This document shows positions 16,520 through 39,232 of a stretch of 39,232 nucleotides of DNA, piece after piece. The notes under the pieces are model-generated. The model worked only from the letters and a program-made list of their open reading frames with translations. It searched no databases and was not told the origin of the DNA. This stretch comes from Pseudofrankia coriaricola (GTDB taxonomy: Bacteria > Actinomycetota > Actinomycetes > Frankiales > Frankiaceae): the NCBI RefSeq assembly GCF_001854805.1, contig NZ_MBLO01000054.1:1-39232 (forward strand). The letters run 5' to 3'. Each line of letters starts with the position of its first letter. Within the stretch, counting starts at the first letter, position 1. The position numbers and the translations under genes are program-made.

Positions 16520-16554
16520 CGTTCTTTCGCCTCCTGCCCGCGATGCCTGCCGGG

Positions 16555-19375: not shown

Positions 19376-19540
19376 TTCCGGTAATGCGACCACCGCCACA
19401 TGTGGGCGGTGACGAAGGTTTGCCTCGCCGAGGCGGGACGCGGCGTCGGCAGATGTGCCGTCGACCGATGTGCCGCGCAGGTGTGCAGGTATGTCGCGCA
19501 GGTGTGTCGCCGACGGCGACGAGGGCCGACACCGTCGGAC

Positions 19541-21665: not shown

Positions 21666-22574
21666 ATGGAGTTCAGACACCTCCTGTCCTTTCTAGCAGT
21701 CGCCGACGAACTACACTTCGGGCGGGCCGCGGCGAAGGTCCACCTGACTCAGCCAGCGCTGAGCCAGCATCTGCGCCGTCTGGAGCGGGATCTCGGCGTC
21801 CAGCTGATGGAACGAACCTCGCACGACGTCCGACTGACGCCCGCGGGCCGAGTGTTCCAGGTGGAGGCCAAGCGTCTCATCGACCAAGCGAAACGGGCGG
21901 AAGCCGCCGTACAGGACGTCGCGGCGGGCCGGACCGGATGGATAAGGATCGGATTCAATCTGCCGGCCGCCGAGCGTGTTCTGCAGCCCGCGCTGGTCAA
22001 GCTGAGCACGACCAACCCGGGCGTGGCAACGCACCTGTGGGAGCAGGGCAGCGCGCAGCAGTTGGAGCGCCTTCTCCAGGGACAGCTCGACGTCGGCTTC
22101 CTCTACGGACCGCAGCCAACCGGCGATCTACGCTCGCGAGAGATAGTCCGGATACGACTGGTCGCCATCGTCGGCGACCACCATGAATGGGCGGGACGAG
22201 AAAAAATCTCATTCCGTGAACTGGCTGAGCAGCCGTGCATGCTGTGTCGGCGCGAAACCTCTCCCGCCATGTACGACGCAATCCTAGCCGTCGCCCAACG
22301 GGCAAAGACGACCCTGCGAGTCATCGCGGAGACCGACGACACGGGCGAAGCAAGGCTCCGACTCGTGACTCGCTCCGTAACCGCGATCGCCTCCATGGAG
22401 CGGGCCCGAACCCTGAAGGGCACGGTGGCGGTGCCGATCGTCGACCCCGTGCCGGCCCTCCCCCTGCGGATCGTGTGGCGGCCCGCGGCGAGCAGGGCCG
22501 TCACGGCCCTGTTGGACAGCGTCGACGCGGTCCTCGCCGAACGCGCGGCGGTGCCCTCTCCCCGCCACGGTTGA
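21666..22574 (+). CDS. LysR-type transcriptional regulator
   Basis: 302 aa. The N-terminal winged helix-turn-helix is clear: MEFRHLLSFLAVADELHFGR, then AAAKVHLTQPALSQHLRRLE, then LGVQLMERTSHDVRLTPAG, followed by the linker helix (VFQVEAKRLIDQAKRAEAAV). Residues from about 90 to 290 form the substrate-binding domain (WIRIGFNLPAAERVLQPAL onward). The length is standard. It is transcribed away from the epoxidase gene, so it is the likely regulator of the minus-strand polyketide operon and of itself, with a small-molecule co-inducer. The downstream ABC operon is 674 bases away on the same strand and could be another target. The family is certain; the targets are inferred. Confidence 0.95.
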   Translation: MEFRHLLSFLAVADELHFGRAAAKVHLTQPALSQHLRRLERDLGVQLMERTSHDVRLTPAGRVFQVEAKRLIDQAKRAEAAVQDVAAGRTGWIRIGFNLPAAERVLQPALVKLSTTNPGVATHLWEQGSAQQLERLLQGQLDVGFLYGPQPTGDLRSREIVRIRLVAIVGDHHEWAGREKISFRELAEQPCMLCRRETSPAMYDAILAVAQRAKTTLRVIAETDDTGEARLRLVTRSVTAIASMERARTLKGTVAVPIVDPVPALPLRIVWRPAASRAVTALLDSVDAVLAERAAVPSPRHG

Positions 22575-23248: not shown

Positions 23249-24604
23249 ATGATAGGCCGGATCCACTGCGGACGGCTGTGGCGGCTGGTGCCCGCCGCGC
23301 TCGCCGTCACCGGCGTGCTCGCCGCGGCCGCGTGCGGCGGCGGTTCGACGTCTTCGTCGACGGACGCACCGACCAGCGCGGCAGCGGCGGCGATCCCGAC
23401 GCTGGACAGCTCGACCAAGGTGACGATCAGTTTCCTGTCCTACAACTACGGCACGCCGGGCCTGGGCGGGACGGGCACGCAGGCGCTGCTCGACGCCTTC
23501 CACAAGGCGTACCCGAACATCACGGTCAAGCCGCAGGGCGTGCCCGTGGCGGACGTCCTGACCAAGCTGCGCACGGACACCGCGGCCGGCACTCCCCCGG
23601 ACGTCGCCCAGATCGGCTGGAGCAAGATGTCGGAGGCGCTGCAGGCCTTGCCGGTCACCCCGGTGCAGCAGATCCCGTCGGCCTCGGAGTGGCAGGCGCA
23701 CACCGCCGGCATGTCCGCCAACATCCTCTCGGCGGTCTCCAGCGGCGGCGTGGTGAAGGCGATGCCCTACACCATGTCCATCCCGATCCTCTACATCAAC
23801 GCCGACCTGTTCCGGAAGGCCGGCCTCGACCCGGACAAGCCCCCGACGACGATGGACCAGGTCAAGAAGGACGCCTTGGCCATCAAGGCGACCGGCGCCG
23901 AGGGCATCTACATCGGCGTCGCGGACGACAGCAAGTCCGACTTCCTGACGCAGTCCGTGGTGAACAGCAACGGCGGCAGCCTGGTCGGCAAGGACGGTGA
24001 GGAGACTGTCGACTCGCCGGCGGCGGTGGGTGCGCTGACGGCGATGGGGGACCTGACCAAGTCCGGGGCACAGCCGGCGGTGAGCTCGGCCAGCGCGGTG
24101 TCGGCGTTCACGAGCGGAAAGCTGGGCATGCTGCTGACCAGCACGGCGCTGATGACCAGCGCCCAGAAGGCCGCCACCGGCAAGTTCGAGCTGCGCACGT
24201 CCGGTTTCCCGACGTTCGGCAGCAAGCCGGCCAAGCCGACATACTCCGGCGCGGGCCTCGCCATCCTCGCCAAGGACGACGTGCACAAGCGGGCGGCCTG
24301 GGAGTTCGTCAAGTTCGTCACCAGCGAGGCCGGCTTCGAGATCATCACGTCGCAGATCGGGTATCTGCCGCTGCGGCCGGCGGTGGCGACCAAGCTCGCG
24401 GGCACCCCGATCCTGAAGCTCCTGCAGCCGTCGCTCAGCCAGCTCGACACGGTCACGCCGTACACCTCCTTCAAGGGGACGCAGGCGAACCAGGCCGTGG
24501 TCGCGCTCCAGGACGAGGCGGTGGCGCCGATCGTGCTGCGCGGGGCCGACCCCGCGCCGACACTGGCCTCGGTAGCGGACAAGATCCGGAAGCTCACCAC
24601 CTGA
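23249..24604 (+). CDS. ABC importer solute-binding lipoprotein (carbohydrate family 1)
   Basis: 451 aa from ATG 23249, with GAGGGG upstream; an ATG at 23244 is closed at once by TGA. The N-terminus is a lipoprotein signal: positively charged start, hydrophobic stretch and VLAAAAC with the lipidated Cys at residue 29, then a Gly/Ser/Thr linker. The mature part has binding-protein features such as LLDAFHKAYPNITVKPQG, PPDVAQIGW, MPYTMSIPILYINADLFRKA and AAWEFVKFVTSEAGFE, as in maltose- or glycerol-3-phosphate-type binding proteins. It would be anchored outside the membrane and deliver sugar or a related solute to the two permeases encoded next. The exact ligand cannot be told. Confidence 0.93.
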   Translation: MIGRIHCGRLWRLVPAALAVTGVLAAAACGGGSTSSSTDAPTSAAAAAIPTLDSSTKVTISFLSYNYGTPGLGGTGTQALLDAFHKAYPNITVKPQGVPVADVLTKLRTDTAAGTPPDVAQIGWSKMSEALQALPVTPVQQIPSASEWQAHTAGMSANILSAVSSGGVVKAMPYTMSIPILYINADLFRKAGLDPDKPPTTMDQVKKDALAIKATGAEGIYIGVADDSKSDFLTQSVVNSNGGSLVGKDGEETVDSPAAVGALTAMGDLTKSGAQPAVSSASAVSAFTSGKLGMLLTSTALMTSAQKAATGKFELRTSGFPTFGSKPAKPTYSGAGLAILAKDDVHKRAAWEFVKFVTSEAGFEIITSQIGYLPLRPAVATKLAGTPILKLLQPSLSQLDTVTPYTSFKGTQANQAVVALQDEAVAPIVLRGADPAPTLASVADKIRKLTT

Positions 24605-24613
24605 CCCACGACG

Positions 24614-25555
24614 ATGACCATCATTGAGGCACCCGCCTCACCGACCCTCCGGGGGCGCGCCGCCAGGCGTGCCCCCGGCACCGGTATCCGGACCCGGCTG
24701 GCACCCTGGGCCTACCAGGCGCCCGTCGTGCTCTCGCTCATCGTCTGGGTCTACGGGCCGCTCGTCTTCACGGCCGCGCTGAGTCTGCTCGACTGGAACC
24801 TGACCTCACCGTCGGGGTCCTTCGTCGGCCTGCGCAACTATCGCCGGTTGGTGGAGGAGCCGGAGTTCCCGGCGGCGCTTTCCCGCACGGCCCTTTACGT
24901 GCTCACGATGTTGCCCTTCGCCACCGTCGTGCCGATGGCCCTGGCGATCATGTTGTGGAAACGGCCGGGCCGAACCAGCGACGTCTACCGGTCGCTGCTG
25001 TTCCTGCCCGTCGTGCTCGCGCCGGTGGCTACGGCGCTGACCTGGCGGTTCATCCTCGACCCGCTCAGCGGAATCGTGAACACGGTCTTCGGCGAGATCG
25101 GCCTTCCGCAGCGTGACTGGCTCGGCGACCCGTCGACCGCGTTGTGGACGATCTCCCTGATCACGGCCGCCAGGTTCGTCGCGTTGAACATGCTGCTGTA
25201 CGGGGCGGCACTGGCGGCACTGGACCGCCGCGCGTTCGACGCGGCGAGGGTCGACGGCGCGACCGAATGGGAGATCACCCGGCATCTCGTCGTCCCGCAG
25301 CTCGGCGGCACGACCGTCCTGCTCGGCTTCCTGTGCCTGGTGTTCGCGGGCCAGTGGACGTTCACCAACATCGCGGTACTGACACAGGGTGGCCCGGTGG
25401 GAGCCACCGACAACGTCTACTACCGGCTCTACACCTACGCGTTCACCTTCTTCGACGCCGGAACCGCCGCCGCCGCCGCGGTCACCATCGTCGTCCTGCT
25501 CACCGCCCTGTTCGGGGCATCGTCACTGTTGCGGAGGCGCCGTGCGCAGTCGTGA
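24614..25555 (+). CDS. ABC sugar-type permease, MalF/UgpA-like
   Basis: 313 aa, starting 9 bases after the binding-protein gene. A short charged cytoplasmic N-terminus precedes a membrane helix (VVLSLIVWVYGPLVFTAALS). Further hydrophobic segments follow, consistent with six helices. The EAA-type coupling loop is seen in RRAFDAARVDGATEWEITRH with the following LVVPQL, which contacts the ATPase. An integral membrane subunit that forms the channel with the second permease. Membership of the binding-protein-dependent transport family is clear; substrate unknown. Confidence 0.93.
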   Translation: MTIIEAPASPTLRGRAARRAPGTGIRTRLAPWAYQAPVVLSLIVWVYGPLVFTAALSLLDWNLTSPSGSFVGLRNYRRLVEEPEFPAALSRTALYVLTMLPFATVVPMALAIMLWKRPGRTSDVYRSLLFLPVVLAPVATALTWRFILDPLSGIVNTVFGEIGLPQRDWLGDPSTALWTISLITAARFVALNMLLYGAALAALDRRAFDAARVDGATEWEITRHLVVPQLGGTTVLLGFLCLVFAGQWTFTNIAVLTQGGPVGATDNVYYRLYTYAFTFFDAGTAAAAAVTIVVLLTALFGASSLLRRRRAQS

Positions 25556-26489
25556 CCCCGGGCTCGCCGCGCTGGCGGGGCCGGCAGGGCCGCCGGCCCC
25601 GCCGGCCGGTCGAGACTCCCCGCCCGACCCGCCCGACCGGACTGGCCTGCCTGGCCGGGGAGCGCGGAGCGGCTGGGCCGGTGGCGCGCGGGGCGCGGGG
25701 CGCCACGCGGTGCTCGCGCTGACCGCCGTCGGAGTGCTGTTCCCACTGCTGTGGGGGTTGTCCGGGTCGTTCAAGCCGGGCACCGACGTGTTCGACGCCA
25801 ACCCGCTGCCGATCCCGGCGACGCTGGCGAACTACCGCTTCGCGCTCGAGGACTTCCCGATCGCCCGGCTGCTGCTGAACACCTTCATCACGGCGGCCGG
25901 GGTGACCCTGCTCCAGCTCGGCGCCGGGGTGCTGGCCGCCTGGTCGTTCGTCCGCTTCTCGCACCGTGGCCAGCGGGTGGTTCTCGCCATGGTCACCGTC
26001 GCGCTGGTGGTCCCACCGCAGGCGCTGATCATTCCACAGTTCCTGATGATCTCGCACCTGCACCTGCGGGACACCTTCGTCGGACTGGTCGTCCCCCAGC
26101 TGTCCACCTGCGCGCTCGCCGTGCTGCTGCTGCGCGAGCACATCCGCTCGATCCCGCCGACCCTGCTCGGCGCCGCCACCCTCGACGGCGCGACGCACGG
26201 CGAGACGTTGCGGCTCGTGGTGCTCCCGCTGCTGCGCCCGGCGCTCAGCGCGGTCGCGATCATCGTGTTCATCACCACCTGGAACGAGTACCTGTGGCCC
26301 GCGCTGGCCGCCCCCAGCCCTGAGCACACCACCATCCAGATGGGCCTGCGGCTGTTCAGCAACCAGGAGGGCCCCGACTACGGCCCCCTGCTGGCCGCGG
26401 CGATGCTCGCCACCCTCCCCGTCGTCGCCGTCTACCTGCTCGCCTCGCGGCGCATCACCGACGCCTTCTTGCAGTCCGGACTGCGCTGA
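25542..26489 (+). CDS. ABC sugar-type permease, MalG/UgpE-like
   Basis: 315 aa if translation starts at GTG 25542, which overlaps the end of the first permease gene by 14 bases and has GGAGG 4 bases upstream. The frame is open further upstream, but that part lies inside the first permease gene and translates to Ser/Pro-rich shadow sequence. The first 50 residues are Pro/Gly/Arg-rich and presumably cytoplasmic. Then come the first helix (AVLALTAVGVLFPLLWGLSG) and five more. The EAA loop is LLGAATLDGATHGETLRLVV followed by LPLLRP. It pairs with the first permease. The overlap suggests translational coupling and equal amounts of both subunits. Confidence 0.88.
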   Translation: MRSRDPGLAALAGPAGPPAPPAGRDSPPDPPDRTGLPGRGARSGWAGGARGAGRHAVLALTAVGVLFPLLWGLSGSFKPGTDVFDANPLPIPATLANYRFALEDFPIARLLLNTFITAAGVTLLQLGAGVLAAWSFVRFSHRGQRVVLAMVTVALVVPPQALIIPQFLMISHLHLRDTFVGLVVPQLSTCALAVLLLREHIRSIPPTLLGAATLDGATHGETLRLVVLPLLRPALSAVAIIVFITTWNEYLWPALAAPSPEHTTIQMGLRLFSNQEGPDYGPLLAAAMLATLPVVAVYLLASRRITDAFLQSGLR

Positions 26490-26525
26490 CATCCCGCCCG
26501 CGCTCACGGCAGGTTAAGGAATCCA

Positions 26526-27917
26526 ATGACACCTGGGATGTTCCCGACCCGGCAGGCCGATCTGGCCCTGACCCCGCCGAGGGCCCTCGGCGACGGGCCG
26601 CGCGACGCGCCCTCGCCGGGCGCGGCGCCCCCGGACGCCGGGCCGGCGGACACGGAGGCGGAGACGGACGCCGTGGCGGAGACGGAGACGGACGCCGTGG
26701 CGGAGGCGTCGGCGTCGGCCGGCCTGGAGGCGTCTGGCGCCGCGGTCGACGACGCCGACGCCGACGTCGGGGGTGTGCTGTTGGACGGGGTCGTGAAGCG
26801 GTACGGGACGCAGACCGTGCTCGACGTTCCCCGGCTGCACATCCCGCACCGGTCGTTCACCGTGCTCGTCGGCCCGTCCGGCTGTGGGAAGTCCACCGGC
26901 CTTCGGGTCGTCTCGGGCCTGGAGACGCCGGACTCCGGCACCGTGATGATCAATGGACGGGACGTCACCACGACCCCACCCGGCGGCCGCGGCGTCTCGA
27001 TGGTCTTCCAGGACTTCGCCCTCTACCCGCATCTCACGGTCGAGCAGAACATCGCCTTCAGCCTGCGGCTCGAGGCGAAGCACGACCGGCGCGGCGGCCC
27101 CAGCCGCGCCGAGATCGCCCGGCGGGTCACCGATGCCTGCGAGATGCTCGGCCTGCAGCCGCTGCGCCGCCGCCGCCCCGGGCAGCTCTCCGGCGGCGAA
27201 CGCCAACGCGTCGGCGTCGCCCGCGCCATCGTCCGGCGCCCGGGCGTGCTCCTGCTCGACGAGCCGCTGTCCGCGCTCGACGCCCAGCTGCGCCAGCATG
27301 CCCGCGCCGAGCTCATCCGGCTGCACCGCGAACTCGGCAACACCGTCATCCTGGTCACCCACGACCAGCTCGAAGCTCTGTCCATGGGCACCCACCTGGT
27401 GGTCATGAAGGCCGGCCGGATCGTCCAGGCCGGCTCCCCAAGCGACGTCTACCGCCGCCCCGCGCACACCTTCGTCGCCACGTTCGTCGGCAGCCCGGCG
27501 ATGAACCTGCACCATGTCGACGTCGTCTCCGATGCCCAGGGCAGCCGGCTGACCGCGGCCGGCATGTGGGCCACCGTGCCCACGGCTATCCCGCTGCCCC
27601 GGGTGAGGGTCGGATGGCGACCGGCCGACGGAACGCTCGAGCCCTTCGCGGCCGGCCGGCCGAGCGAGCCGGGTCTGAGCGTGGAGGGCACGGTGGACGT
27701 CATCGAGTTCACCGGCGACACGGCCGTCGTCCATGGCATCTCCCAGGGGGCCGCCGCCGGCCGGAGCGCTCACGATCTGCCTTGGACCGTCGTCATCCCG
27801 GCCCGGCAACCGGCTCCGGCTGTGGGAGAACGGGTCACGGTCCGCGTTCCCCACACCCACCTCCACCTGTTCGACCCCGACGACGGCCACCGGCTGGCCG
27901 AGGGGGCCGTGGGTTGA
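26526..27917 (+). CDS. ABC importer ATPase, MalK/UgpC-like, with acidic N-terminal extension
   Basis: 463 aa from ATG 26526. Walker A GPSGCGKST is near residue 116, the Q-loop in VFQDFALYPHL, the signature LSGGERQR, Walker B VLLLDEP, D-loop SALD and H-loop VTHDQ, so the ATPase is complete. From about residue 320 a TOBE-like regulatory domain follows (FVATFVGSPAMNLHHVDV onward), as in MalK-type subunits. Unlike the family norm, about 80 residues precede the core, rich in Ala, Asp, Glu and Thr with a repeated AETDAV / AETETDAV unit. A later start is possible but no better in-frame start is evident close to the core. It drives solute uptake at the inner membrane face with the two permeases. Confidence 0.93.
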   Translation: MTPGMFPTRQADLALTPPRALGDGPRDAPSPGAAPPDAGPADTEAETDAVAETETDAVAEASASAGLEASGAAVDDADADVGGVLLDGVVKRYGTQTVLDVPRLHIPHRSFTVLVGPSGCGKSTGLRVVSGLETPDSGTVMINGRDVTTTPPGGRGVSMVFQDFALYPHLTVEQNIAFSLRLEAKHDRRGGPSRAEIARRVTDACEMLGLQPLRRRRPGQLSGGERQRVGVARAIVRRPGVLLLDEPLSALDAQLRQHARAELIRLHRELGNTVILVTHDQLEALSMGTHLVVMKAGRIVQAGSPSDVYRRPAHTFVATFVGSPAMNLHHVDVVSDAQGSRLTAAGMWATVPTAIPLPRVRVGWRPADGTLEPFAAGRPSEPGLSVEGTVDVIEFTGDTAVVHGISQGAAAGRSAHDLPWTVVIPARQPAPAVGERVTVRVPHTHLHLFDPDDGHRLAEGAVG

Positions 27918-28398: not shown

Positions 28399-30084
28399 AT
28401 GCTCGCCGGTAGTGTCGGTAACCTCACCGACGCCCTGGCGGCGGTCGTCGCCGCCGATCCCGAGTGCCCGCTGTCGTTTCCCTCCGAGGGCCGGGACATC
28501 TCGGTCCGTGAGCTGGCCACGGCGTCCGGTGCCGCGACCGTCGCGCTTGCCGGCCTCGGGGTCGAGGGCGGCGACCGGATCGGGGTGCTCAGCCGCAACA
28601 GCCCGGACTTCCTGATCGCGCTGTTCGCCGCCGTGGGGGTGGGCGCGGCCGCCTGTCCCCTGCCGCTGCCGACCTCGGCCCGCGACCTGTCCGGCTACGC
28701 CAGCCGGCTGACCGGAATCATCGCGGCGGCTGGCATCAGCCGGATCCTCGTGGACGACAGGCTCGGCGGGATGGCCAGCCGGCTGGCCGAGGTGCTCGCC
28801 CCGGTGGAGCTGATCCCGGTGGGCAGCCTCACCGCCGCCGTCGGCGCCGGCGGGCCGCCGCGGCCGCACCACGCCGAACCGGGCGAGCTCGCGGTCGTCC
28901 AGTTCACCTCGGGCAGCACCGCGGCGCCGAAAGGGGTGCGGCTGACGCATCGCAACATCCTCGCCGGGACGGCCGCGATCGCCGAGGGCCTCGACATCCG
29001 TCCAGGTGAGGACCACGGCGGCCTGTGGTTGCCGATGTTCCACGACATGGGCCTGTTCGGCACCCTGGCCGGCATGTTCGCCGGGATTCCGATGACGGCG
29101 TGGTCCCCCGGGGCCTTCGTGCGGGACCCGGCGCGCTGGCTGCGGGGGTTCGCCGCTCTCGGTGGAACGATGTCTCCGGCTCCGAGCTTCGGGTACGAGG
29201 CCCTCGTCGAGTCCGTCCCCAGCGAAGAGGTGAGCCAGCTCGACCTGAGCCGCTGGCGGGTCGCCCTCAACGGGGCCGAGCCGATCCGGATGGCGGGCAT
29301 CGAGGGCTTCCTCGAGCACTTCGCGCCGGCGGGATTCACGCCGGCGGCGATGCTGCCGGTCTACGGGATGGCCGAGGCGACGCTCGCGGTCACCTTCCCG
29401 CCTCTCGGCCGGGCTCCGACGGCGCTCTGGGTCGACCGCGACCGGCTGGCCGCGGACGGCGTCGCGGTCGAGGTGCCGAGGGACGACCGACGGGCGCGCG
29501 GGCTGCCGGCGCTCGGCCAGCCGGTCCGCGGAGTGCGGATCCGGGTGGTCGACGAGCATGGGAACGAGGTCGCCGACCGCGCGATCGGTGACATCGAGAT
29601 CGCCGGCGATCCGGTCACCTCGGGCTACCTCACCGCCCCGAGTGCGTCTCCGGCACCCGCACCCGACGTGGACGGCTGGCTCAGCACCGGCGACCTCGGC
29701 TTCCAGCACGCGGGAGAGCTGTACGTCACCGGCCGTCGCAAGGAAATGATCATTGTCCGCGGGGTGAACGTCTACCCGGAGGACGCCGAGAGCGTGATCC
29801 GCGATGCTCCCGGCCTGCACCGCGGACGCTGCGTCGCGTTCGCCGACGTAGCGGCCGATGGCGCCGAGTGCATCACCGTCGTGGGCGAGAGTGCGCTGGA
29901 GGACCCGGCCGACCGGGCACGGCTCGCCGCCGATCTGCGTGCCGCCGTCTCGGGCGCGCTCAGCCTGCCGGACGTCGCCGTCCGCCTCGTCGGTCCCGAC
30001 GACCTGCCCCGCACCTCGAGTGGGAAGTTCCAGCGACTCGCCGCCCGGGAGCTCACACGGGAGGCCGCCCACCTGGATGCCTGA
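28399..30084 (+). CDS. Fatty acyl-AMP ligase (FAAL)
   Basis: 561 aa from ATG 28399, with AGGAG 8 bases upstream; the open frame to 28318 lacks a ribosome site. It belongs to the ANL adenylating superfamily. The P-loop-like motif FTSGSTAAPKG is near residue 170, LPMFHDMGLFG near 210, RWRVALNGAEPI near 290, PVYGMAEATLAVT near 320 and the C-terminal Lys in SSGKFQR near 540. The FHDMGL and YGMAEATLAVT forms are typical of FAALs, which make acyl-adenylates and pass the acyl group to a carrier protein rather than CoA. The free ACP encoded about 800 bases downstream is the natural partner. The substrate is a free carboxylic acid of unknown chain length, possibly the polyketide acid of the left cluster. 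Confidence 0.93.
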   Translation: MLAGSVGNLTDALAAVVAADPECPLSFPSEGRDISVRELATASGAATVALAGLGVEGGDRIGVLSRNSPDFLIALFAAVGVGAAACPLPLPTSARDLSGYASRLTGIIAAAGISRILVDDRLGGMASRLAEVLAPVELIPVGSLTAAVGAGGPPRPHHAEPGELAVVQFTSGSTAAPKGVRLTHRNILAGTAAIAEGLDIRPGEDHGGLWLPMFHDMGLFGTLAGMFAGIPMTAWSPGAFVRDPARWLRGFAALGGTMSPAPSFGYEALVESVPSEEVSQLDLSRWRVALNGAEPIRMAGIEGFLEHFAPAGFTPAAMLPVYGMAEATLAVTFPPLGRAPTALWVDRDRLAADGVAVEVPRDDRRARGLPALGQPVRGVRIRVVDEHGNEVADRAIGDIEIAGDPVTSGYLTAPSASPAPAPDVDGWLSTGDLGFQHAGELYVTGRRKEMIIVRGVNVYPEDAESVIRDAPGLHRGRCVAFADVAADGAECITVVGESALEDPADRARLAADLRAAVSGALSLPDVAVRLVGPDDLPRTSSGKFQRLAARELTREAAHLDA

Positions 30085-30246
30085 CCACATCACCCGATCG
30101 CCGCCCCAAGGCAGCCACCGGAACCCGCTGCCTGGATCCGCCGAGTGAACCGTCACCTGACCGCCGCCCGACTCGTCGCGCCTCCGGCCCCGAGGCCCAC
30201 GGGCGCGCCCTCCCGCCGCAGGTCCGATCGACAGGAGACATCCCGG

Positions 30247-30324
30247 ATGCACGGCTTCGGCATCAGCTTCGGCGTCAGCTTCCACGCCACCTTCCGCCAG
30301 CGGCTCGCGGACGTACCCGCATGA
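30247..30324 (+). CDS. Possible 25-aa peptide gene coupled to the hotdog thioesterase
   Basis: ATG 30247 to TGA 30324 encodes a peptide beginning MHGFGISFGVSFHATFRQ and ending ADVPA. A GACAGGAG ribosome site lies 9-10 bases upstream, stronger than anything before the next gene. Its stop overlaps the next start in ATGA (30321-30324). The peptide is Phe/Gly/Ser-rich in its first half and charged later. It may be a leader that carries ribosomes to the thioesterase gene, or a real small protein. No family is recognised. The ribosome site and overlap are seen; function is unknown. Confidence 0.45.
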   Translation: MHGFGISFGVSFHATFRQRLADVPA

Positions 30325-30884
30325 CGGTCGAGGACCCCATCGAGCTGCCCTGGCACGTCCTCGCGGACTACCGGTGCTTCGGTTGCTCGCCGCACAACCC
30401 GCACGGGATCCAGCTGCGGTTCACCCACCGGGGCGACGGCCTGCGGACGGTCTTCCGCCTGGGGCGGGCGTACGAGTCCTACCCCGGCGTGGTCCACGGG
30501 GGGCTGCTCGGGGTGATCGCCGACGAGATCATGGGCAACCTGATCGTCCTGCGGACCGGTCAGATCCCGTTCACGACGGGGATGCGGATGCGCTACGTCC
30601 TGCCCGTGACGGTCGGGGGCCGCTACGAGTGCGTCGCGCGGGTCCGGGACGGCGATGGCCAGCTCATCCACACCGAGGCCGAGATCCGCGAGGAGGACGG
30701 CCCCCTGGTCGCCACCGCCACCGCCAGCTACCGGACCGTCTCGCTCGACGCGGCCCGCGCGCGCATCTCACTGGACGCACCGGAGATCGCCCGACTGCGC
30801 CAGGCGCTGTCCGCCACCGGTCCCGCCGCCGAAACACCCACCAGAAGCGCTCTTCCGGAGGAGTCCCATGTCCGTGTCGACTGA
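30321..30884 (+). CDS. Hotdog-fold thioesterase (PaaI/4HBT-like)
   Basis: 187 aa from ATG 30321, which overlaps the upstream 25-codon frame by ATGA. A CFGCSPHNPHGIQLRF start is common in PaaI-like thioesterases. The hotdog helix and active region are YPGVVHGGLLGVIADEIMGN near residues 53-73, with His and the acidic residues that bind the thioester or activate water. Strands RMRYVLPVTVGGRYECVARV and ATATASYRTV follow. About 45 residues after the fold are low-complexity. Such enzymes release acyl groups from CoA or ACP. Between a ligase and an ACP, it likely edits or unloads the ACP. Its last 17 bases overlap the ACP gene. Confidence 0.85.
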   Translation: MTVEDPIELPWHVLADYRCFGCSPHNPHGIQLRFTHRGDGLRTVFRLGRAYESYPGVVHGGLLGVIADEIMGNLIVLRTGQIPFTTGMRMRYVLPVTVGGRYECVARVRDGDGQLIHTEAEIREEDGPLVATATASYRTVSLDAARARISLDAPEIARLRQALSATGPAAETPTRSALPEESHVRVD

Positions 30885-31131
30885 CGAACTCATCGACGAG
30901 ATCACCGGGATCGTGGCACAGGAGCTCGGCCTCTCCCCGGAGGCGGTGTCGCCGGACGCCGACCTGCGCACGGTCGAGGGCGCCGACTCGGTGAAGGTGC
31001 TGCGGGTGATCGCCCGCGTCGAGCGCGCCCGCGACGTCGAGCTCGAGGACGAGGACGTCTTCGGCGCCTCGACGATCCGCGAGGTCGCCGAGGTCGTCCA
31101 GCGTGCTCTGACCGAGACGGCCGCGGCATGA
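30868..31131 (+). CDS. Free-standing acyl carrier protein
   Basis: 87 aa from ATG 30868, with GGAGGAG 5 bases upstream. It overlaps the thioesterase end by 17 bases and the methyltransferase start by ATGA, so translation is coupled on both sides. The protein is acidic, of normal ACP length, and carries the phosphopantetheine site in EGADSVKVLR. The site is GADS rather than the GxDSL of PKS carrier domains. It should be the acyl carrier for the ligase encoded upstream and may present the acyl chain to the methyltransferase and the oxoamine synthase. Confidence 0.92.
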   Translation: MSVSTDELIDEITGIVAQELGLSPEAVSPDADLRTVEGADSVKVLRVIARVERARDVELEDEDVFGASTIREVAEVVQRALTETAAA

Positions 31132-31982
31132 GCGCCGTGACCAGCGCCATCCCCGAGACCGCGCAGACCAACCAGCACTATGACCTCGACCCGAGGATCT
31201 TCGGGCTGTTCCTGGACCCGATGCGCAAGTACTCCTCGGGTTACTACCGCGAGCCTGGCCTCACACTGGCCGAGGCCCAGGTCGCGAAGCTGCGTTTCGT
31301 GGCCGACCGCCTCGGCCTTCGCGAGGGCGACCGCCTGCTCGACGTGGGCTGCGGCTGGGGCGCGCTCATCCTGTTCATGGCCCAGGAGTACTCCGCGCGG
31401 GTCGTCGGGATCAGCCCGGCCGGCAACCAGCACGCCTACATCGCGAAGCGGGCCGGGGACCTCGGCGTGGCCAACCTGGTCAGCACCGTCCAGGGCCACT
31501 TCGAGCACGCCGCGCTGCCGGATGGCCCGTTCGACGCGGTGACGATGCTCGGTTCGATCGTGCACATGCCCGACCTCGTGCACGTGATGCGGCGCGCCCG
31601 GTCCCTGCTGCGCCGGGGCGGCCGGTACTACGTCTCGGAGAGCTGCTTTCGCAACGCGGCGGCCAGGGACGAGTTCGACCGCCGTGCTGGCACCGAGTTC
31701 GTCCGCGAGTCGATCTTCGGCTGGGGCGACATGCGCCCGCTGTCCGACCTCGTCCGCGCGGCCGAGGACGCCGGGTTCTCCGTCGTGAGCGTGGACGACC
31801 TGACCGACGACTACCGCCGCACGATCGACGGCTGGCTGCACAACGTCGACGCCAATGCCGCGGCCATCGAGCAGGTCTCACCGGGAATGGCCGCGACGCT
31901 GCGCCGCTACCTCGAGGTCGCCAACGCCGGCTGGGGCTACACGACCAAGCACTACGCCCTCGTCTGCCAGCGGTCCCGGTGA
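31128..31982 (+). CDS. SAM-dependent methyltransferase, cyclopropane-fatty-acid-synthase family
   Basis: 284 aa starting in an ATGA overlap with the ACP gene. The N-terminal QHYDLDPRIFGLFLDPMRKY with the following SSGYY is the hallmark of the CFA synthase and mycolic-acid cyclopropane synthase family. SAM motif I is LLDVGCGWGALILFMA (residues 70-85), followed by ARVVGISPAGNQHAYIAKRA. Members add a methylene or methyl group across or next to an alkene, often on lipids or ACP-bound chains; others C-methylate prenyl diphosphates. Here the likely target is the ACP-bound acyl chain, with a cyclopropane or methyl branch as product. The target is inferred from the gene order. Confidence 0.88.
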   Translation: MSAVTSAIPETAQTNQHYDLDPRIFGLFLDPMRKYSSGYYREPGLTLAEAQVAKLRFVADRLGLREGDRLLDVGCGWGALILFMAQEYSARVVGISPAGNQHAYIAKRAGDLGVANLVSTVQGHFEHAALPDGPFDAVTMLGSIVHMPDLVHVMRRARSLLRRGGRYYVSESCFRNAAARDEFDRRAGTEFVRESIFGWGDMRPLSDLVRAAEDAGFSVVSVDDLTDDYRRTIDGWLHNVDANAAAIEQVSPGMAATLRRYLEVANAGWGYTTKHYALVCQRSR

Positions 31983-32038
31983 GACCTCCGCCGAACCTTC
32001 CCCGCTGATCCAGCGTCGACGGCTGCAGGAGAGTACCC

Positions 32039-33166
32039 ATGGACACGATCGGAACGATCGACGAGCTACATACAGTGGCCGCCACTCTCACCGGACTTTC
32101 CGACTTCGGCCCCTCGGATTATCTGGAGGGACTCGAGGTGGTCCTGGCCTCCTACGAGAAGGAGGCCAGCCTGACTCCGGATGGCGTTCGGGCGATCCGG
32201 GACGAGCTGTGCGGAATCCTGGTCGCCCGCCTTCTCAGTGAGGCCGGCTGGCACAGGCACCCCGAACACGCCCAGGTCCCGATCGAGCGTCCGGTGTTCA
32301 TCGTCGGCATGCCGCGCACCGGTACGACCACCCTGCACCGCCTGCTCACCGCCGACCCGGCGAATCAGGGCCTCGAACTGTGGCTGACCTACGCTCCCCA
32401 GCCCCGGCCGCCGCGCTCGACCTGGCCCGACAACCCGATCTTCGAACAGGTCCGGCAGGGCGTCGGCGCGTTCATGGAACAACATCCCGGCTACCTGGGC
32501 ATTCACAACCGCACAGCTGACGGGGTCGAGGAGTGCTGGCTGTTGACCCGCCAGTCGATGCTCTCGGCGTACTTCGAGTTCACCGGCTACGTGCCCACGT
32601 ATTCCGCATGGCTGGCGGGTCAGGACTGGACCGGGGCCTACCAGCGGCATCGGCGCAACCTCCAGCTGATCGGGCTGAACGACCAGGGGCGGCGCTGGGT
32701 GCTCAAGTCCTCCAGCCATATGCCCTGCCTGGACGCCCTGCTGGCGACCTACCCCGACGCCCTGGTGATCCAGACGCACCGCCGGCCGGCCAGCGCGGTG
32801 CTCGGATCGGCGTGCAGCATGGTAAGCCACCTCGCGGCAGGCAAGTCCTCCACCTTCCACGGCCAGGCGATCGGCCCCGTCCTGTTCGACATGGCCACGC
32901 GCGCCCTCGAGCGGTTCGCCGCGGACCGGGCCAAGCACGATCCCGCCACGTTCTACGACGTCGAGTTCGACGCGTTCATCGCCGACCCACTGGCGGTCGT
33001 CGCCGACATCTACCGTCACCTCGGTTGGGAGCTGGCCGACGAGGTCGGCCCCGCCATGTTGGCGGTGCTGGCCGAGGACGCCCGTCTGCGTTCTCATCGC
33101 TACGAGCTGGCCGACTTCGGCGTCAACGCCGCGGAGGTCGACTCCCGACTCGGCGCCCTGCTCTGA
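32039..33166 (+). CDS. PAPS-dependent sulfotransferase family protein
   Basis: 375 aa from ATG 32039, with GCAGGAG upstream. The PAPS 5'-phosphosulfate loop is FIVGMPRTGTTTLHRLL near residue 87, and the 3'-phosphate region is VIQTHRRPASAVLGSACSM near 240. This matches the Sulfotransfer_3 group common in actinobacteria and mycobacteria. Such enzymes transfer sulfate to hydroxyl groups of lipids or small molecules, though some members of the group have lost this activity. It lies between the methyltransferase and the oxoamine synthase with gaps of 56 and 57 bases, so it is part of the same operon. A sulfated lipid-like product is suggested. Confidence 0.9.
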   Translation: MDTIGTIDELHTVAATLTGLSDFGPSDYLEGLEVVLASYEKEASLTPDGVRAIRDELCGILVARLLSEAGWHRHPEHAQVPIERPVFIVGMPRTGTTTLHRLLTADPANQGLELWLTYAPQPRPPRSTWPDNPIFEQVRQGVGAFMEQHPGYLGIHNRTADGVEECWLLTRQSMLSAYFEFTGYVPTYSAWLAGQDWTGAYQRHRRNLQLIGLNDQGRRWVLKSSSHMPCLDALLATYPDALVIQTHRRPASAVLGSACSMVSHLAAGKSSTFHGQAIGPVLFDMATRALERFAADRAKHDPATFYDVEFDAFIADPLAVVADIYRHLGWELADEVGPAMLAVLAEDARLRSHRYELADFGVNAAEVDSRLGALL

Positions 33167-33223
33167 CCGACGCGACACGGCACACCATCGCTTCCGAGCC
33201 GCACTCCTGGAAACGAGGAAATC

Positions 33224-34459
33224 GTGACCACCACGTCCACGAACCTGGCGCTGGACAACTGGGGCTTCTCCGAATGGATCGGCGCCACACGACGAAGCGG
33301 TGACTTCGTGGCGCCACCCGAGCTGGACGGCGTCAACGACGCGGTTGTCAGCATGAACGGCCGAAAAATGATCAACTTTGCCGGCATCGGCATCCTGGGA
33401 TGGCAGCACGACCCGCAGGTGCGCCGGGTCTTCGCCGAGACGGCGGCGGCGTACGGGCTGGTCGTCGGCGGCTCCCGGATGGTTCAGGGCGTGTCCCGGC
33501 CGCATCTGGAGCTGGAGGCGCTGGTAGCCGAGATCACCGGCAAGGAGAAGGCACTCACATTCGCCACCGGGCTGCTGGCCAACGTCGGCTTCGTCAATGC
33601 GATGAGTACCGCGTTCTCGTTCGACGACCGGCCCGGCGTCGACAACTCGGACGCGGTCCTCGTGCTCGACCGGCGCAGCCATTGGAGCATCTGGAAGGGC
33701 GCCGATCGATTCGAGCGGGGCCGCAACCTGTTCGCGTTCCGGCACAACGACACCGCCCATCTCCGGGAGGTGCTGGAGCAGCTCCGCGGCCGGCGGATCA
33801 TCGTCGGTTTCGAGACCGTGTACTCCGCGGACGGCTCGATCGCCCCGATCGGCGAGATCCTGGACCTGTGCGACGAGTTCGGCGCGGTCAGCTTCGCCGA
33901 CGACGCCAACGGCTTCATGGTCTACGGCAACGGTGGCCCCCGGTTCGCCGCCGAGTACGAGGCGCTCCGGCGGGTGACCTTCCTGATGGTGTCGTTCGGC
34001 AAGTCCGTCGGGCTGGGCGGGGGCGCCCTCGCCGGACCGGCCGACGCCCTCGACGCGTTCCACTACATGTCGGGCACGTCGCTGTTCACCACCAACATCC
34101 AGCCGCCGACGGCCGGCGCCATCGTCCATGTGCTGCGCCGGATGAGGCAGGACCCGTCGGTGATGGAACGCTACCTCGACCGGGTCGACCAGCTCCGCGC
34201 GCGACTGCTCGGGATCGGCTGTCTCATCAACCCGACACCGACCTATGTCACCTCGATCCTGGTGGGCGTCAGAGACCTCGCGCTTCGCGTCCGAGCGGAC
34301 TTCCTCGACCGCGGGTACCTGGTGCCGATGTTCGGCTACCCGGCGGTGAAGAAGGACGGGGCCGTGATCCGGCTGATGATGAACGATCGGCTGTCCGACG
34401 AGGACGTGGACGGATTTGTCGACACCCTCGCCGAGCTCAAGCGGAAGCACGGATTCTGA
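33224..34459 (+). CDS. PLP-dependent alpha-oxoamine synthase family protein
   Basis: 411 aa from GTG 33224, with GAGGA 4-5 bases upstream. It is related to 8-amino-7-oxononanoate synthase, serine palmitoyltransferase and CqsA. The PLP lysine is K260 in SFGKSVGLGGG. The ring-stacking His is in RRSHWSIWKGA, and the Asp that holds the PLP nitrogen is in FADDANGF. In that last motif family members have DD/E-A/S-His; here the His position is Asn229. Other landmarks are GGSRMVQGVSRPHLELE and TSLFTTNIQPP. The family condenses an acyl thioester with an amino acid, losing CO2, to give an alpha-aminoketone. The acyl donor is probably the ACP encoded upstream; the amino acid is unknown. The His-to-Asn change leaves some doubt about the exact reaction. 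Confidence 0.9.
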   Translation: MTTTSTNLALDNWGFSEWIGATRRSGDFVAPPELDGVNDAVVSMNGRKMINFAGIGILGWQHDPQVRRVFAETAAAYGLVVGGSRMVQGVSRPHLELEALVAEITGKEKALTFATGLLANVGFVNAMSTAFSFDDRPGVDNSDAVLVLDRRSHWSIWKGADRFERGRNLFAFRHNDTAHLREVLEQLRGRRIIVGFETVYSADGSIAPIGEILDLCDEFGAVSFADDANGFMVYGNGGPRFAAEYEALRRVTFLMVSFGKSVGLGGGALAGPADALDAFHYMSGTSLFTTNIQPPTAGAIVHVLRRMRQDPSVMERYLDRVDQLRARLLGIGCLINPTPTYVTSILVGVRDLALRVRADFLDRGYLVPMFGYPAVKKDGAVIRLMMNDRLSDEDVDGFVDTLAELKRKHGF

Positions 34460-34549
34460 GCCAGCTCCGCTCCGGTCGTTCCCCGACGTCCTGAACGACA
34501 GACGGATGGGGTCAGCCCGTCCGCGCGGTCACGATTCACGGAGGTGGCG

Positions 34550-37500
34550 ATGGCGACGGACTCACAGTCCGGGTCCGGGAGCCGGGTTCTCGACGAGCGG
34601 TCGAAACACCGGGCCGCCGAGCTCTACGCGACGGACCAGCAGATTCGGGACGCCAGACCGCTCGAGGCGGTCACCGCCGCGATACGGGAGCCGGGGATGT
34701 CACTCGGGCGGATCGTGGCGACCGTCATGGAGGGCTACGCCGACCGACCCGCGCTGGGGGAACGCGCGACGGAGCTGGTTACCGACTCCGCGACCGGCCG
34801 AACCACGCTTCGCCTGCTGCCGAGGTTCGACACGATCAGCTACCGCGAGCTGTGGTCGCGGGCGGGCGCGCTCGCCGCTGAATGGCACCACCATCCGCGG
34901 GTCCCGCTGCACGCGGGCGAACTCGTCTGCGTGCTCGGTTTCACCGGTACCGACTACGCCACGATCGAAATGGCCTGTGTCCGGTTCGGCGCCGTGTCGG
35001 TGCCCCTGCAGTCCAGCACGCCCGTCGGCCTCCTGAAGTCGATCCTCATGGAGACCGAGCCGCGCATTCTCACGACCAGCGTGGAACTGCTGCCGACCGC
35101 CGTCGAATGCGCCCTGGCCAGCAGGTCGCTGCGCCGCCTGGTGGTCTTCGGCTACCAGAGCGAGGTGGACGAGCATCGTCGGCGGTTCGAGGCCGCGCAC
35201 CGGCGCCTGGCCGAGTCCGGCAGCCCGGTCGTGCTGGACTCGCTGACCGACCTGCTCCTGCACGGAACGGCCCTGCCGTCGGCGCCCTCCTTCGAGGACG
35301 GCCCGGATGACACCCGGCTGGCCTCGCTCCTCTACACGTCCGGCAGCACCGGGACGCCCAAGGGGGCCATGTACACCGACCGCCTGGTCGCGATGGCGTG
35401 GCGCGGCGGATTCTGGCCCCGGTCGGAAGACCTGCCGATCATCTCCTTCAACTGCATGCCCATGAGCCATGTGTCGGCGCGCGGCACACTGGTCGGCACG
35501 CTCGCCGCCGGCGGGATCAGCCAGTTCGCGGCGACGAGCGACCTTTCCACGCTGTTCGAGGACATGGCCCTGGTCCGGCCCACGGCGTTACGACTGGTGC
35601 CACGCATCTGCGACATGCTGTTTCAGCGATACCACGCCGAACTGGACCGGCGGGCAGCCGGCCCGGGCGACCGGGCCTCGATCGAAGCGGACGTGAGGAA
35701 CGAGCTGCGCGAGCAGTGCCTCGGCGGGCGCCTGGTCTGGATCGGTACCGGGTCCGCTCCGCTGTCCGCCGGGATGGCCACATTCATCGAGTCGTGCGTG
35801 GATCTTCCGGTGCACGACGGCTACGGCTCGACGGAAACCGGCCGACTGCTGGTGGACGGGAAGGTGTCCCGGCCGCCGGTGATCGACTACAAGCTCGTCG
35901 ACGTACCCGAACTGGGCTACCTCCGCACTGACTCGCCGCATCCACGCGGCGAGCTGCTGGTCAAGACGGGCGCCATCATCCCTGGGTACTACAGGCGTCC
36001 CGAGATCACCACGGAGATCTTCGACGACGGCTACTACAAGACCGGCGACATCATGGCCGAGATCGGGCCGGACGAGCTGGTCTACATCGACCGCCGCGCC
36101 AACGTGCTGAAGCTGTCCCAGGGCGAGTTCGTGGCCGTCTCCCGGCTGGAGGCCCTGTTCGTCAGCAGCCCTCTGGTTCAGCAGATCTTCGTCTACGGCA
36201 GCAGCGAGCGCGCCTACCTGCTCGCGGTGGTGGTGCCCACCCGCGAGGCCATCGAACGTGCCTGGGGGTCCACCGCGGACCTCAACGCGGCGGTCGGCGA
36301 ATCACTGCGGCAGACCGCGAAGAACACGGGCCTGAGCCGTCACGAGATCCCCCGTGACGTGCTGATCGAGACCGAGCCGTTCAGCACCGAGAACGGCCTG
36401 CTCTCCGACGCTCGCAAGCTTCTGCGCCCGAATCTCGAGGGCCGGTACCGCGAGCGTCTGGAGCAGCGGTACGCGGAACTCGCCGCCTGGGAGGTCGACG
36501 AGCTGAGCGCACTGCGCCACGCCGGCCGCGGCCAGCCCGTGCTCGACGCGGTCCGGCGGGCCGCCGCGGCGCTGCTGGGTCGCGCGGGCGGTGAGGTGCA
36601 CCCGGAGGCGCACTTCACCGATCTCGGCGGCGACTCCCTGTCCGCGCTGTCGTTCTCCAACCTGCTCGCGGAGATCTTCGGGATAGACGTTCCGGTGGGT
36701 GTCATCACCAGTCCCGCGAATGGCCTGCGGCGGGTGGCGGACCACCTGGAGAAGGCGCTGGTGTCCGGACCGACACGACCGACCTTCGCGACCGTGCACG
36801 GCACCGGCCGGACGCGGGCCAGGGCCACCGATCTCGCGCTGGACAGGTTCATCGACGCCGCGACGCTCGCCGAGGTCGGGGCACTGCCGCGACCGGCCGG
36901 AGAGGCCCGCGTCGTACTGCTGACGGGCGCGAACGGCTACCTCGGCCGCTTCCTGTGCCTGGAATGGCTGGAACGGCTGGCCCTGACGGGTGGCACGCTG
37001 ATCTGCCTCGTCCGGGGCGCCACCGCCGACGCGGCGCGCAAGCGGCTCGCCGCTGTGTTCGACGCCGGCGACCCCGGCCTGCTCCGGCGCTTCCAGCGCC
37101 TGGCCGTGCCGCACCTCCAGGTCGTCGCGGGCGACGTCAGCGAACCCGGCCTGGGGCTGGACGAGCCGACCTGGCGCCACCTGGCCGAAACCGTCGACCT
37201 GGTCGTCCACTCCGCCGCGCTGGTCAACCACCTGCTGCCGTACGAGCAGTTGTTCGGTCCCAACGTCGTCGGCACGGCGGAGCTGATCCGGATGGCGCTC
37301 ACCACACGAATCAAACGGTTCTCCTACGTGTCGACCGTGGGCGTGATCGCCGCCCAGTCGTCGGCCTCCGACGAGGAGACGGACATTCGTCTCTCCAGCC
37401 CGGTTCGCCAGCTCGACAGGAGCTACGCCGGCGGTTACGGGACGAGCAAATGGGCCGGCGAGATCCTGCTGCGGGAAGCGCACGACCTGTCCGGTCTGCC

Positions 37501-38089
37501 GGTGGCCGTCTTCAGGCCGGATCTCATCCTCGCGCACAGCCGGTACGCCGGCCAGGTGAACGTGCCCGACGTCTTCACCCGCCTGCTGATCAGCCTCGTC
37601 GCCACCGGCATCGCGCCGCGTTCCTTCTACCCCGGCACCGATGGCGGCCGGGCGCGCGCGCACTTCGGCGGGCTGCCGGTCGACTTCACCGCGGCAGCCG
37701 TCACCGCGCTCGGCGAGCGATCCGTGGCCGGGTACCAGACCTTCAACGTCCTCAGTCCGAACGACGGCTTCTCCCTCGACGTGCTCGCCGGCTGGCTGGT
37801 CGAGACCGGTTGCCCCGTGACGCGGATAGACGATTACGACGAGTGGTTCACACGCTTCGAGACCGCCCTTCGCGCGATACCGGAGAAGCAAAGGAGGCAG
37901 TCACTGCTCCCCCTTCTGTCCGCCTTCAGCCAGTCCGCCCGGGCCGTCAGCCGCGCCGGATTCCCCGCCGACCGGTTCCGCGCCGCCGTACATGCGGCCG
38001 AGATCGGCTCCGGAAGGGGTATTCCCGACATCTCGGCGTCATTGATCCGCAAGTACGTCACCGACCTGCGCGGGCTGGATCTGATCTGA
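34550..38089 (+). CDS. Carboxylic acid reductase (CAR): A-T-R domains
   Basis: 1179 aa from ATG 34550, with GGAGG 5 bases upstream; GTG 34544 overlaps that site. The adenylation domain covers about 1-640, with [15 protein letters not shown] near 262, [14 protein letters not shown] near 303, GYGSTETG near 426 and [16 protein letters not shown] near 515. The carrier domain has [11 protein letters not shown] with Ser696 for phosphopantetheine. The reductase domain has [11 protein letters not shown] near 790, YVSTVGV, and the catalytic Tyr963 and Lys967 in [10 protein letters not shown]. This is the full Nocardia/Mycobacterium-type CAR layout, which reduces a free acid to an aldehyde using ATP and NADPH. 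It needs a phosphopantetheinyl transferase encoded elsewhere. It is 90 bases after the oxoamine synthase and probably co-transcribed. Its substrate here is unknown. Confidence 0.96.
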
Positions 38090-38545
38090 GCCGCGGCCGA
38101 GCACCGACGTGCGGACGTGCGGACGTGGTTTCGCCTCAGCGCCCATGCCGAGTTGCCTGTCCGCGCCGAGAGACACCGAGGCGACTACGGCCGCGCGCGG
38201 TCCCGACGACGGCCCTGGCGCGGCGTGGCCAGCGCCTCCGGCCGGCGAAATAGTGGTCGCGCACGGCTGTGACGACGTCCGGAAAAGGAAACCAGACGAC
38301 GTTGACCCGTGGACCGGATTTCGAGAACCTCACGTGGGAATAATTCTTTCCGACCGGATCTCCGGTGGTGCCGACGGTGCCGACGGCAGGTTCGATATCA
38401 GCCTCTTATCGCACGATGAAAGAGCACGACAATCCCTTGCCCCGCCCCGGCGGCGACCAGACGATAACGCCGCCGGACGGCGGTGCTTCTCGCAATGCGC
38501 ACCCGAGGTAACAGCCCGGGTCGGCACCACGAAGGAGCGGGACCC
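38090..38545. other. 456-base region between CAR and P450 genes
   Basis: No gene is supported. Just after the CAR stop there is a short direct repeat of GACGTGCG (about 38105-38125). An AT-rich patch (GGAATAATTCTTTCC, about 38336-38350) may be part of a promoter for the P450 gene. No clear terminator hairpin was found. Confidence 0.45.
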
Positions 38546-39232
38546 ATGACCTCAGCCCAGATCGAGAACGTCGTCCCCGACGCGGTCGACCTGTTCACCA
38601 CCGCCCACCGCCTCGACCCCTACCCGGGCTACCGCCGGCTGCGCGAGGCCCCCAGCCTGACCGACATCCGCCTCGGCGACACCGAGGTGACGGTGCTGTC
38701 CAGGTTCGCCGACTGCGCCGCCGTGCTGCAGAGCGCCACCTGGGGGCACGGCAACGCCGACCGGCTCAGCCCGTTCTGGGACCAGGAAGCGAGCCTGCCG
38801 GGCTCGTTCATCCGGATGGACCCCCCGGACCACCGACGCCTGCGCGGCCTGGTCAACAAGGCCTTCAGCGCCCGGATGGTCGCCGACCTCACCCCCATGA
38901 TCACCCGGCTGGTCGACACCCTCGTGGACCGGGCCGTCGAGGCCGGCGGGCTCGACGTGGTCCGGGACCTCTCCGCGCCGCTCGCACTCGCGATGGTGGG
39001 CCAGCGGCTGCTCGGCGTACCCGAACAGGACGCCGACCAGCTGCGAGCCTGGGAGCTGGCAATCGCCCGCGGCACCGACCCGGAACCGCTGCTGACCACC
39101 GAGGAGATCACCCGCCGCGACCAGGCCGGAGCAGGCGTCGTCGCATACCTGATGGACCTCATGGAGCGCCGCCGCGCCCACCCCGAGAACGACCTGCTCA
39201 GCCGGCTCGTCGCCGTCGAAGAAGCCGGGGAC
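38546..39232 (+). CDS. Cytochrome P450, N-terminal 229 residues (runs off window)
   Basis: ATG 38546 has AAGGAG 8 bases upstream. The frame is open for 229 codons to the window edge. The sequence has bacterial class I P450 features: DPYPGYRRLREA near residue 25, FIRMDPPDHRRLRGLVNKAF near 90 (the conserved C-helix region), and VGQRLLGVPEQDADQLRAW. The oxygen-binding helix, ExxR and haem-binding Cys are outside the window, so function is judged from the first half only. It probably hydroxylates or epoxidises the product of the preceding pathway, with a ferredoxin partner. It may belong to the same cluster or begin a new unit, since 456 bases separate it from the CAR gene. Confidence 0.92.
   Translation, partial: MTSAQIENVVPDAVDLFTTAHRLDPYPGYRRLREAPSLTDIRLGDTEVTVLSRFADCAAVLQSATWGHGNADRLSPFWDQEASLPGSFIRMDPPDHRRLRGLVNKAFSARMVADLTPMITRLVDTLVDRAVEAGGLDVVRDLSAPLALAMVGQRLLGVPEQDADQLRAWELAIARGTDPEPLLTTEEITRRDQAGAGVVAYLMDLMERRRAHPENDLLSRLVAVEEAGD

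Follow-up and report, generated by a model that had tools for sequence, protein, structure and literature searches.

A sulfotransferase/alpha-oxoamine synthase pair beside a reduced acyl-ACP tailoring cluster in Pseudofrankia coriaricola: a candidate locus for a sulfated aminolipid

Gene content of the locus

The locus described here is a run of eight plus-strand genes in Pseudofrankia coriaricola, in which a sulfotransferase (ST) and an alpha-oxoamine synthase (AOS) follow a set of genes for the tailoring of chains on an acyl carrier protein (ACP), and which may direct the synthesis of a sulfated, sphingoid-like aminolipid. The run occupies one end of contig C54 (NZ_MBLO01000054.1) of an 11.2 Mb genome; the whole contig of 39,232 nucleotides was analyzed and is referred to as the window. 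Gene identities were assigned from open reading frame (ORF) calls together with Pfam and NCBIfam profile searches.

The first gene, at 28399-30084 with an alternative start at 28318, encodes a fatty-acyl-AMP-ligase-like enzyme (FAAL; PF00501, 183.6 bits). Its top NCBIfam model, NF006624 (a FAAL), scores 394 bits, which is under the cut-off of 600, and the second-best model is named as a CoA ligase; the best solved chain is that of a FAAL (3pbk, E 2e-76). There follow a hotdog-fold thioesterase (TE, 30321-30884; PF03061, 36.3 bits), an ACP with a GADSV motif (30868-31131; PF00550, 53.6 bits), and an S-adenosylmethionine (SAM)-dependent methyltransferase of the CMAS family (MT, 31128-31982). The ST, at 32039-33166, is of the 3'-phosphoadenosine 5'-phosphosulfate (PAPS) type (PF13469, 163.4 bits; best solved chain 2zq5, E 1e-120). 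The AOS, at 33224-34459, is a BioF/SPT/ALAS-like enzyme dependent on pyridoxal 5'-phosphate (PLP), for which TIGR00858 gives 204 bits against a cut-off of 426. Next is a carboxylic acid reductase (CAR, 34544-38089) with a full-length A-PCP-R architecture (NF041592, 1752.7 bits, above the cut-off of 1300), and finally the first 229 residues of a cytochrome P450 (38546-39232), open at the window and contig end. The seven genes from FAAL to CAR are intact, full-length frames, and the P450 alone is cut by the contig end. All eight families named in the first-pass annotation are thus present, the P450 as a fragment and the FAAL below its model cut-off.

That annotation also described a compact run linked by ATGA overlaps. 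The gaps measure 56 bases between MT and ST, 57 between ST and AOS, and 84 between AOS and CAR, and the four-base ACP/MT overlap is the only ATGA joining two intact genes. TE and ACP share 17 bases. A vestigial ORF is joined to TE by ATGA, the FAAL-TE interval, vestige included, is 236 bases, and 456 bases separate CAR from the P450. Promoter and terminator scans (one found versus 0.5 expected, and one versus 4.0, respectively) were uninformative.

The sulfotransferase/oxoamine synthase pair and the methyltransferase

ST and AOS form a conserved, co-diverging unit of the locus. The close loci compared are the window, L022-L029, and L031, in which the AOS is at least 64% identical. In all ten, ST is located directly upstream of AOS on the same strand, with a gap of 46-168 bases. 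The ST and AOS distances are correlated with an r of 0.98, a value as high as which was reached in none of 5000 permutations, and the correlation holds when Streptomyces nanshensis is left out. Residues P92, R93, T94, T96, T97, R248, and S257 of ST, which we take to form the 5'- and 3'-phosphosulfate motifs, are invariant in all ten. Since the genomes carry several PF13469 matches (12 in the source genome, 13 in G001, and four in G016), the pairing with AOS selects one ST of many. The window ST has no match in the stretches around any of the 12 distant AOS loci (AOS 39-48% identical; L032, L039, and L084-L093).

The AOS itself belongs to a distinct subfamily. Residues K260, H153, and D226, presumably the PLP lysine, the stacking histidine, and the aspartate of oxoamine synthases, are invariant in the ten close members and kept in all 22 subfamily members. 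Also retained is R383, which we assume to be the carboxylate ligand. The sequence DDANGF occurs in 22 of 22, such that N229 takes the position of the histidine in the D-x-x-H motif, a histidine present in each of the five solved ALAS, SPT, and BioF chains compared (two of which are near-identical). The SPT models score 160.7, 151.6, and 108.9 bits, all under their cut-offs, and a cysteate-C-fatty acyltransferase (28eh) is a solved relative at E 1e-22. Matches to the AOS were found in 8 of 58 relatives (E 1e-60) and in 9 of 393 genomes of the class (E 1e-80), and members of the subfamily in 12 of 392 genomes of the genus of S. nanshensis, that species among them (E 1e-90). A scan of genome contigs yielded just two named loci, among them that of Frankia sp. 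AgB1.9, whose AOS is 85% identical to that of the window. A search of viral contigs for AOS gave no match. A plasmid search gave one, at 46% identity, in Eleftheria terrae and without an ST match. On that plasmid (NZ_CP106952.1, 19959-24486), the DDAN-type AOS precedes genes for a SAM methyltransferase and for a GNAT/flavin fusion, an arrangement that may resemble the MT-GNAT-ACP-AOS architecture of SxtA. DDAN oxoamine synthases also occur in Streptomyces-group loci (L084-L093), six of which (L086-L091) are alike by gene sizes. Locus L091, which was scanned, holds AMP-ligase/aldehyde dehydrogenase, thiamine pyrophosphate-enzyme, and condensation-domain genes, and L084 shares the first two.

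In seven loci the ST-AOS pair stands alone. A short-chain dehydrogenase/reductase (SDR) gene follows AOS in five of these (L026-L029 and L031), and in L026, L028, and L029 an exporter of the major facilitator superfamily (MFS) comes next. Locus L024 has the MFS gene and no SDR match, and L025 has neither, its contig ending shortly past AOS. The pair is preceded by an MMPL protein in L029; in the S. nanshensis locus, L031, it is flanked by PfaD/FabA-type genes on the upstream side and by an acyltransferase on the other. Taken together, the SDR, exporter, acyltransferase, and PfaD/FabA-type neighbors point to a lipid logic for the pair. The AOS-linked SDR of L026 scores 155.6 bits with a 3-ketodihydrosphingosine reductase model, under the cut-off of 400 and behind six other SDR models.

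The MT belongs to the CMAS family, its score with PF02353 being 155.8 bits against a cut-off of 27. Its best profile matches are cyclopropane fatty acid (CFA) and mycolic-acid synthases, and every NCBIfam CFA-synthase model scores under its own cut-off. PMC9821293 describes the CmaA1 residues H167, E140, and Y232 as conserved and states that the ring cannot form without the bicarbonate and its ligands; the same ligand types are named in PMC11387697, where their mutation reduces activity. In 13 of 13 aligned members of the window MT family, the glutamate is replaced by valine (Val145) and the histidine by serine (Ser170), the latter correspondence being drawn from alignments close to a gap, and the tyrosine alone is retained. 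The position of the CFA-synthase cysteine is occupied by serine, or by alanine in one of the 13. The cyclopropanation proposed in the first-pass annotation is therefore unlikely on the residues of the bicarbonate site, two of its three ligands having been replaced, and the assignment of MT as a cyclopropane synthase was rejected. The enzyme probably methylates an acyl-ACP instead. A parallel, drawn here from the published description, is provided by the anammox enzyme AmxMT1, a SAM methyltransferase that lacks the bicarbonate site and whose proposed substrates are ACP-bound chains; PMC9821293 compares it with the C-methyltransferases of polyketide synthases (PKS). Note that a gene of the CMAS family is not automatically a cyclopropane synthase.

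A reduced type B cluster and its surroundings

The genes for FAAL, TE, ACP, and MT have a second copy on contig C243 of the same genome (54, 52, 62, and 73% identity, respectively), after which come a gene for a desaturase-like diiron protein (DES, PF03405), P450 genes, and an epoxide hydrolase gene; homologues of the ABC importer and LysR regulator described below are present as well. Matches to MT at E 1e-70 were found in 30 of 393 genomes of the class, namely in 29 of the 35 from the Frankiaceae and in one other. Trees of MT and FAAL separate these clusters into types A and B (branch supports of 99/96 and 100/100), with one non-family row in each tree left ungrouped, and the window falls in type B. 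The type B gene order, P450c-P450-FAAL-X-TE-ACP-MT-DES-SDR, was read from genomes G001, G002, G004, and G034 and from AgB1.9 (L030); G027 has the type B set with a split P450 and no FAAL match, and G030 is cut by a contig end. Six type B loci gave a match to the window TE, at 72-79% identity. X denotes a ferritin-like diiron protein of 262 residues, whose best natural solved relative is the acyl-ACP desaturase DesA2 (E 5e-4), a designed helix bundle ranking higher.

Compared with this longer cluster, the window copy is reduced. Five type B genes are missing from it: the two P450 genes before FAAL, X, DES, and SDR. A vestige of X, amounting to about 25 codons and the ribosome-binding region, is located at 30247-30324 on the plus strand by local alignment to the 5' ends of X genes. 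The alignment scores of 51, 52, and 50 exceed the shuffle maxima of 33, 30, and 37 for three of four relatives; for G001 the score of 33 does not exceed the maximum of 34. X lies between FAAL and TE in type B relatives and in the same place in type A loci (L060, L062, L068, and L070), and its absence from the window is thus most simply explained by a deletion.

The ST-AOS-CAR cassette is found in three of the eight type B clusters, those of the window, G001, and G003 (taken as AgB1.9). In G001 and AgB1.9 the order is P450-P450-FAAL-X-TE-ACP-MT-DES-SDR-ST-AOS-CAR, and the cassette sits between SDR and a second thioesterase gene, which SDR directly adjoins in G002 and G004. The same genes thus recur in the same order in relatives, which goes beyond chance. 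Genome G002 lacks the cassette, although the MT tree places it with G001 and G003; the cassette was therefore either gained and then lost, or transferred. The window CAR shares 71% identity with the CARs in the G001 and G003 clusters, 57% with a G005 CAR, and 45-47% with the others among the ten genomes searched.

The last gene of the run is of a different standing. Positions 38453-39232 are identical over 780 bases, with a sharp boundary, to the ends of contigs C243 (L010) and C160 (L011). The P450 fragment matches no Pfam family and four NCBIfam models, all under cut-off, and the full P450 gene on C160 belongs to PF00067. A P450 frame does begin at 38546, but it lies inside this exact repeat at three contig ends, so that its link to the cluster hangs on one contig end and its membership is doubtful. 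The repeat reflects either a recent duplication or an assembly break. At the other end of the window, positions 1-198 on the minus strand encode the N-terminus of an X gene, 92% identical to G005 over 216 bases, and C160 holds the C-terminal part of one. In G005, a single type A cluster contains the genes for X, P450c, P450, two further P450s, and DES. It thus seems that the left window end adjoins the type A cluster. We infer that the left end of C54 is contiguous with C243 and C160, and that the P450 block was either duplicated after CAR or misplaced there. The eight genes, which were first taken as one unit, are not a single evolutionary unit, given the five missing type B genes, the three-gene cassette, and the P450 in an assembly repeat.

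Upstream of FAAL lies a sugar-type ABC importer identified by Pfam (binding protein, two permeases, and ATPase; 23249-27917, plus strand), as far as which the conserved synteny extends. It precedes type B clusters in L063, L064/L097, L067, and L099, with only the ATPase end in L066, and homologues are also found near type A copies in L009 and L069. Homologues of a LysR-family regulator (21666-22574, plus strand; PF03466/PF00126) lie close to type A loci and to some of type B (L009, L060, L061, L062, L065, L066, L069, and L070).

The remaining features are all on the minus strand. A type I modular PKS occupies 235-15600, with a thioesterase (235-1251), a KS-AT-DH-KR-ACP module (1273-6816), and a protein with two KS domains (6925-15600). 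That the PKS and the type A cluster form one gene cluster is unsupported, as the G005 stretches beyond X have no nucleotide match to the PKS. The ORF at 15662-17668 carries the acyl-CoA thioesterase domains 4HBT_3 and 4HBT_3C at residues 429-661 (approximately 15686-16384), possibly a separate gene. A metallo-beta-lactamase-fold gene (18461-19399) and a weakly halogenase-like flavoprotein gene (19541-20929) have homologues beside several of the compared clusters.

A predicted pathway and its alternatives

With a probability of roughly 0.45, the locus specifies a two-module secondary-lipid pathway leading to a sulfated, sphingoid-like aminolipid or a cyclized derivative thereof. The first module would comprise FAAL, ACP, TE, and MT, and the second, concerned with the head group, ST, AOS, and CAR. 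FAAL would activate a free acid as the acyl-AMP and transfer it to ACP, and MT would methylate the carrier-bound chain without cyclopropanation. TE could free the acid from ACP. AOS would then condense the acyl-ACP with an amino acid, with decarboxylation, to yield an alpha-aminoketone, and ST would transfer sulfate from PAPS onto a hydroxyl of the AOS product or of the chain. CAR is expected to reduce a free acid, either the chain released by TE or an omega-acid, to the aldehyde. The oxidations carried out in relatives by X, DES, SDR, and the P450s may be supplied by the apparently adjoining type A cluster. Acid loading, condensation, and sulfation had been put forward on first annotation, and as proposed reactions they fit both the families and the conserved ST-AOS pairing.

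Several observations weigh against this scheme. Residue 55 of AOS is isoleucine in the window and isoleucine or valine in 22 of 22 subfamily members, where by our reading of the alignment ALAS, SPT, and BioF have asparagine; I55 and N229 together suggest that a different amino acid or a different chemistry is possible. The run lacks the SDR that would supply a hydroxyl for sulfation beside the amine. In six of the seven stand-alone ST-AOS loci there is no FAAL or ACP match in the stretch, the seventh, L028, having a FAAL match at 34%. AOS is absent from the other five of the eight genomes with a type B cluster, and the cassette is thus not needed for the core product.

The absence of AOS from those five genomes and the occurrence of stand-alone ST-AOS operons would be explained if two pathways ran side by side without a joint product, FAAL, TE, ACP, and MT yielding a methylated fatty acid as in type A, and ST, AOS, and CAR drawing on other acyl donors. 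This is unlikely, though it survives best among the alternatives: in G001 and AgB1.9 as well as in the window, the cassette belongs to one gene run with the rest of the cluster, across short gaps, and the CARs of these clusters resemble each other more closely than they do other CARs. The deletion scar of X and the loss of DES, SDR, and the upstream P450s could also mark the window copy as a decaying paralogue that makes nothing itself. The seven remaining genes are open and full-length, however, and AOS, ST, and MT conform to their families in the motifs examined; decay is improbable. Least probable is a role of the sulfate as a leaving group, in which the AOS product would be reduced to an amino alcohol, sulfated, and displaced to give an aziridine, pyrroline, or other N-heterocycle, or eliminated to an enamine or alkene: the tight ST-AOS(-SDR) linkage would suit such a role, as would the cyanobacterial olefin synthases, in which an ST sulfates the FAAL-loaded chain before its elimination (PMC11837247), but an olefin synthase requires both KS-AT-KR and an ST-TE module, which were not found in the window run, the window ST pairs with AOS rather than TE, and the exporters by the stand-alone operons are equally compatible with a stable product. 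Membership in the olefin synthase family was also rejected, as the profile search of the 28399-38089 genes revealed no KS, AT, or KR.

Returning to the sulfated aminolipid, the nearest known logic is that of the SgaA/SgaB/SgaC sphinganine pathway of Pseudomonas fluorescens MYb115 (PMC12134224), in which an AOS joins a thioester chain to an amino acid. SgaB, the AOS, uses serine and acyl thioesters, and SgaC, an SDR proposed to reduce the product, lies beside SgaB, as an SDR partner lies beside AOS in the stand-alone ST-AOS-SDR loci. The two systems differ in that the Sga chain is built by an iterative PKS and serine is used, whereas the window holds FAAL/ACP, ST, and CAR; the word "sulfotransferase" does not occur in the text of PMC12134224. 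An Sga-type sphinganine cluster was rejected, as the genes of 28399-38089 include neither a PKS nor a stand-alone SDR. The vitroprocine-type amino-polyketides of Vibrio (PMC4523872) likewise unite a fatty or polyketide chain with an amino acid, an SPT-like enzyme being suspected by the authors; they derive from tyrosine or phenylalanine, and the consulted portion of that paper mentions no sulfate, FAAL, or CAR.

The sulfonolipid (cysteate) pathway is similar in that an AOS yields a sulfur-bearing sphingoid analogue. The sulfur of sulfonolipids enters as the C-sulfonate of the amino acid, whereas a sulfotransferase, as in the window, points to sulfate on oxygen or nitrogen. JamABC of jamaicamide and the caryoynencin-type polyynes typify FAAL-ACP starters with desaturases, systems in which no AOS or CAR is known to us. 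They share with the window and its relatives a FAAL, a free ACP, and oxidative tailoring on the carrier (for the products, see Table 2 of PMC11837247); the two diiron genes of the window relatives, in contrast, are of the soluble ferritin and acyl-ACP-desaturase types, and there are none in the window run. For the set of FAAL, ACP, MT, ST, AOS, and CAR, no description was found in searches of open-licence PMC papers, which did not contradict the statement in the first-pass annotation that no such pathway was known. The locus would thus be a variant on known lipid logic, with a product predicted from sequence.

The locus is composed of two separable units: an acyl-ACP tailoring cluster, whose MT is found in most of the sampled family genomes (29 of 35) and for which no product was found, and the co-evolving ST-AOS pair. 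It is conceivable, though doubtful, that ST-AOS(-SDR-exporter) serves actinobacteria as a portable module yielding O-sulfated lipids of the sphingoid type or sulfates of amino alcohols, built around a DDAN-type AOS and plugged, in Pseudofrankia-like strains, into the family-wide tailoring cluster to give a lipid class without a described relative. If the pair does make sulfated aminolipids, it would represent an additional route to sulfur-bearing sphingoid lipids beside the cysteate route, in the family of nitrogen-fixing plant symbionts.

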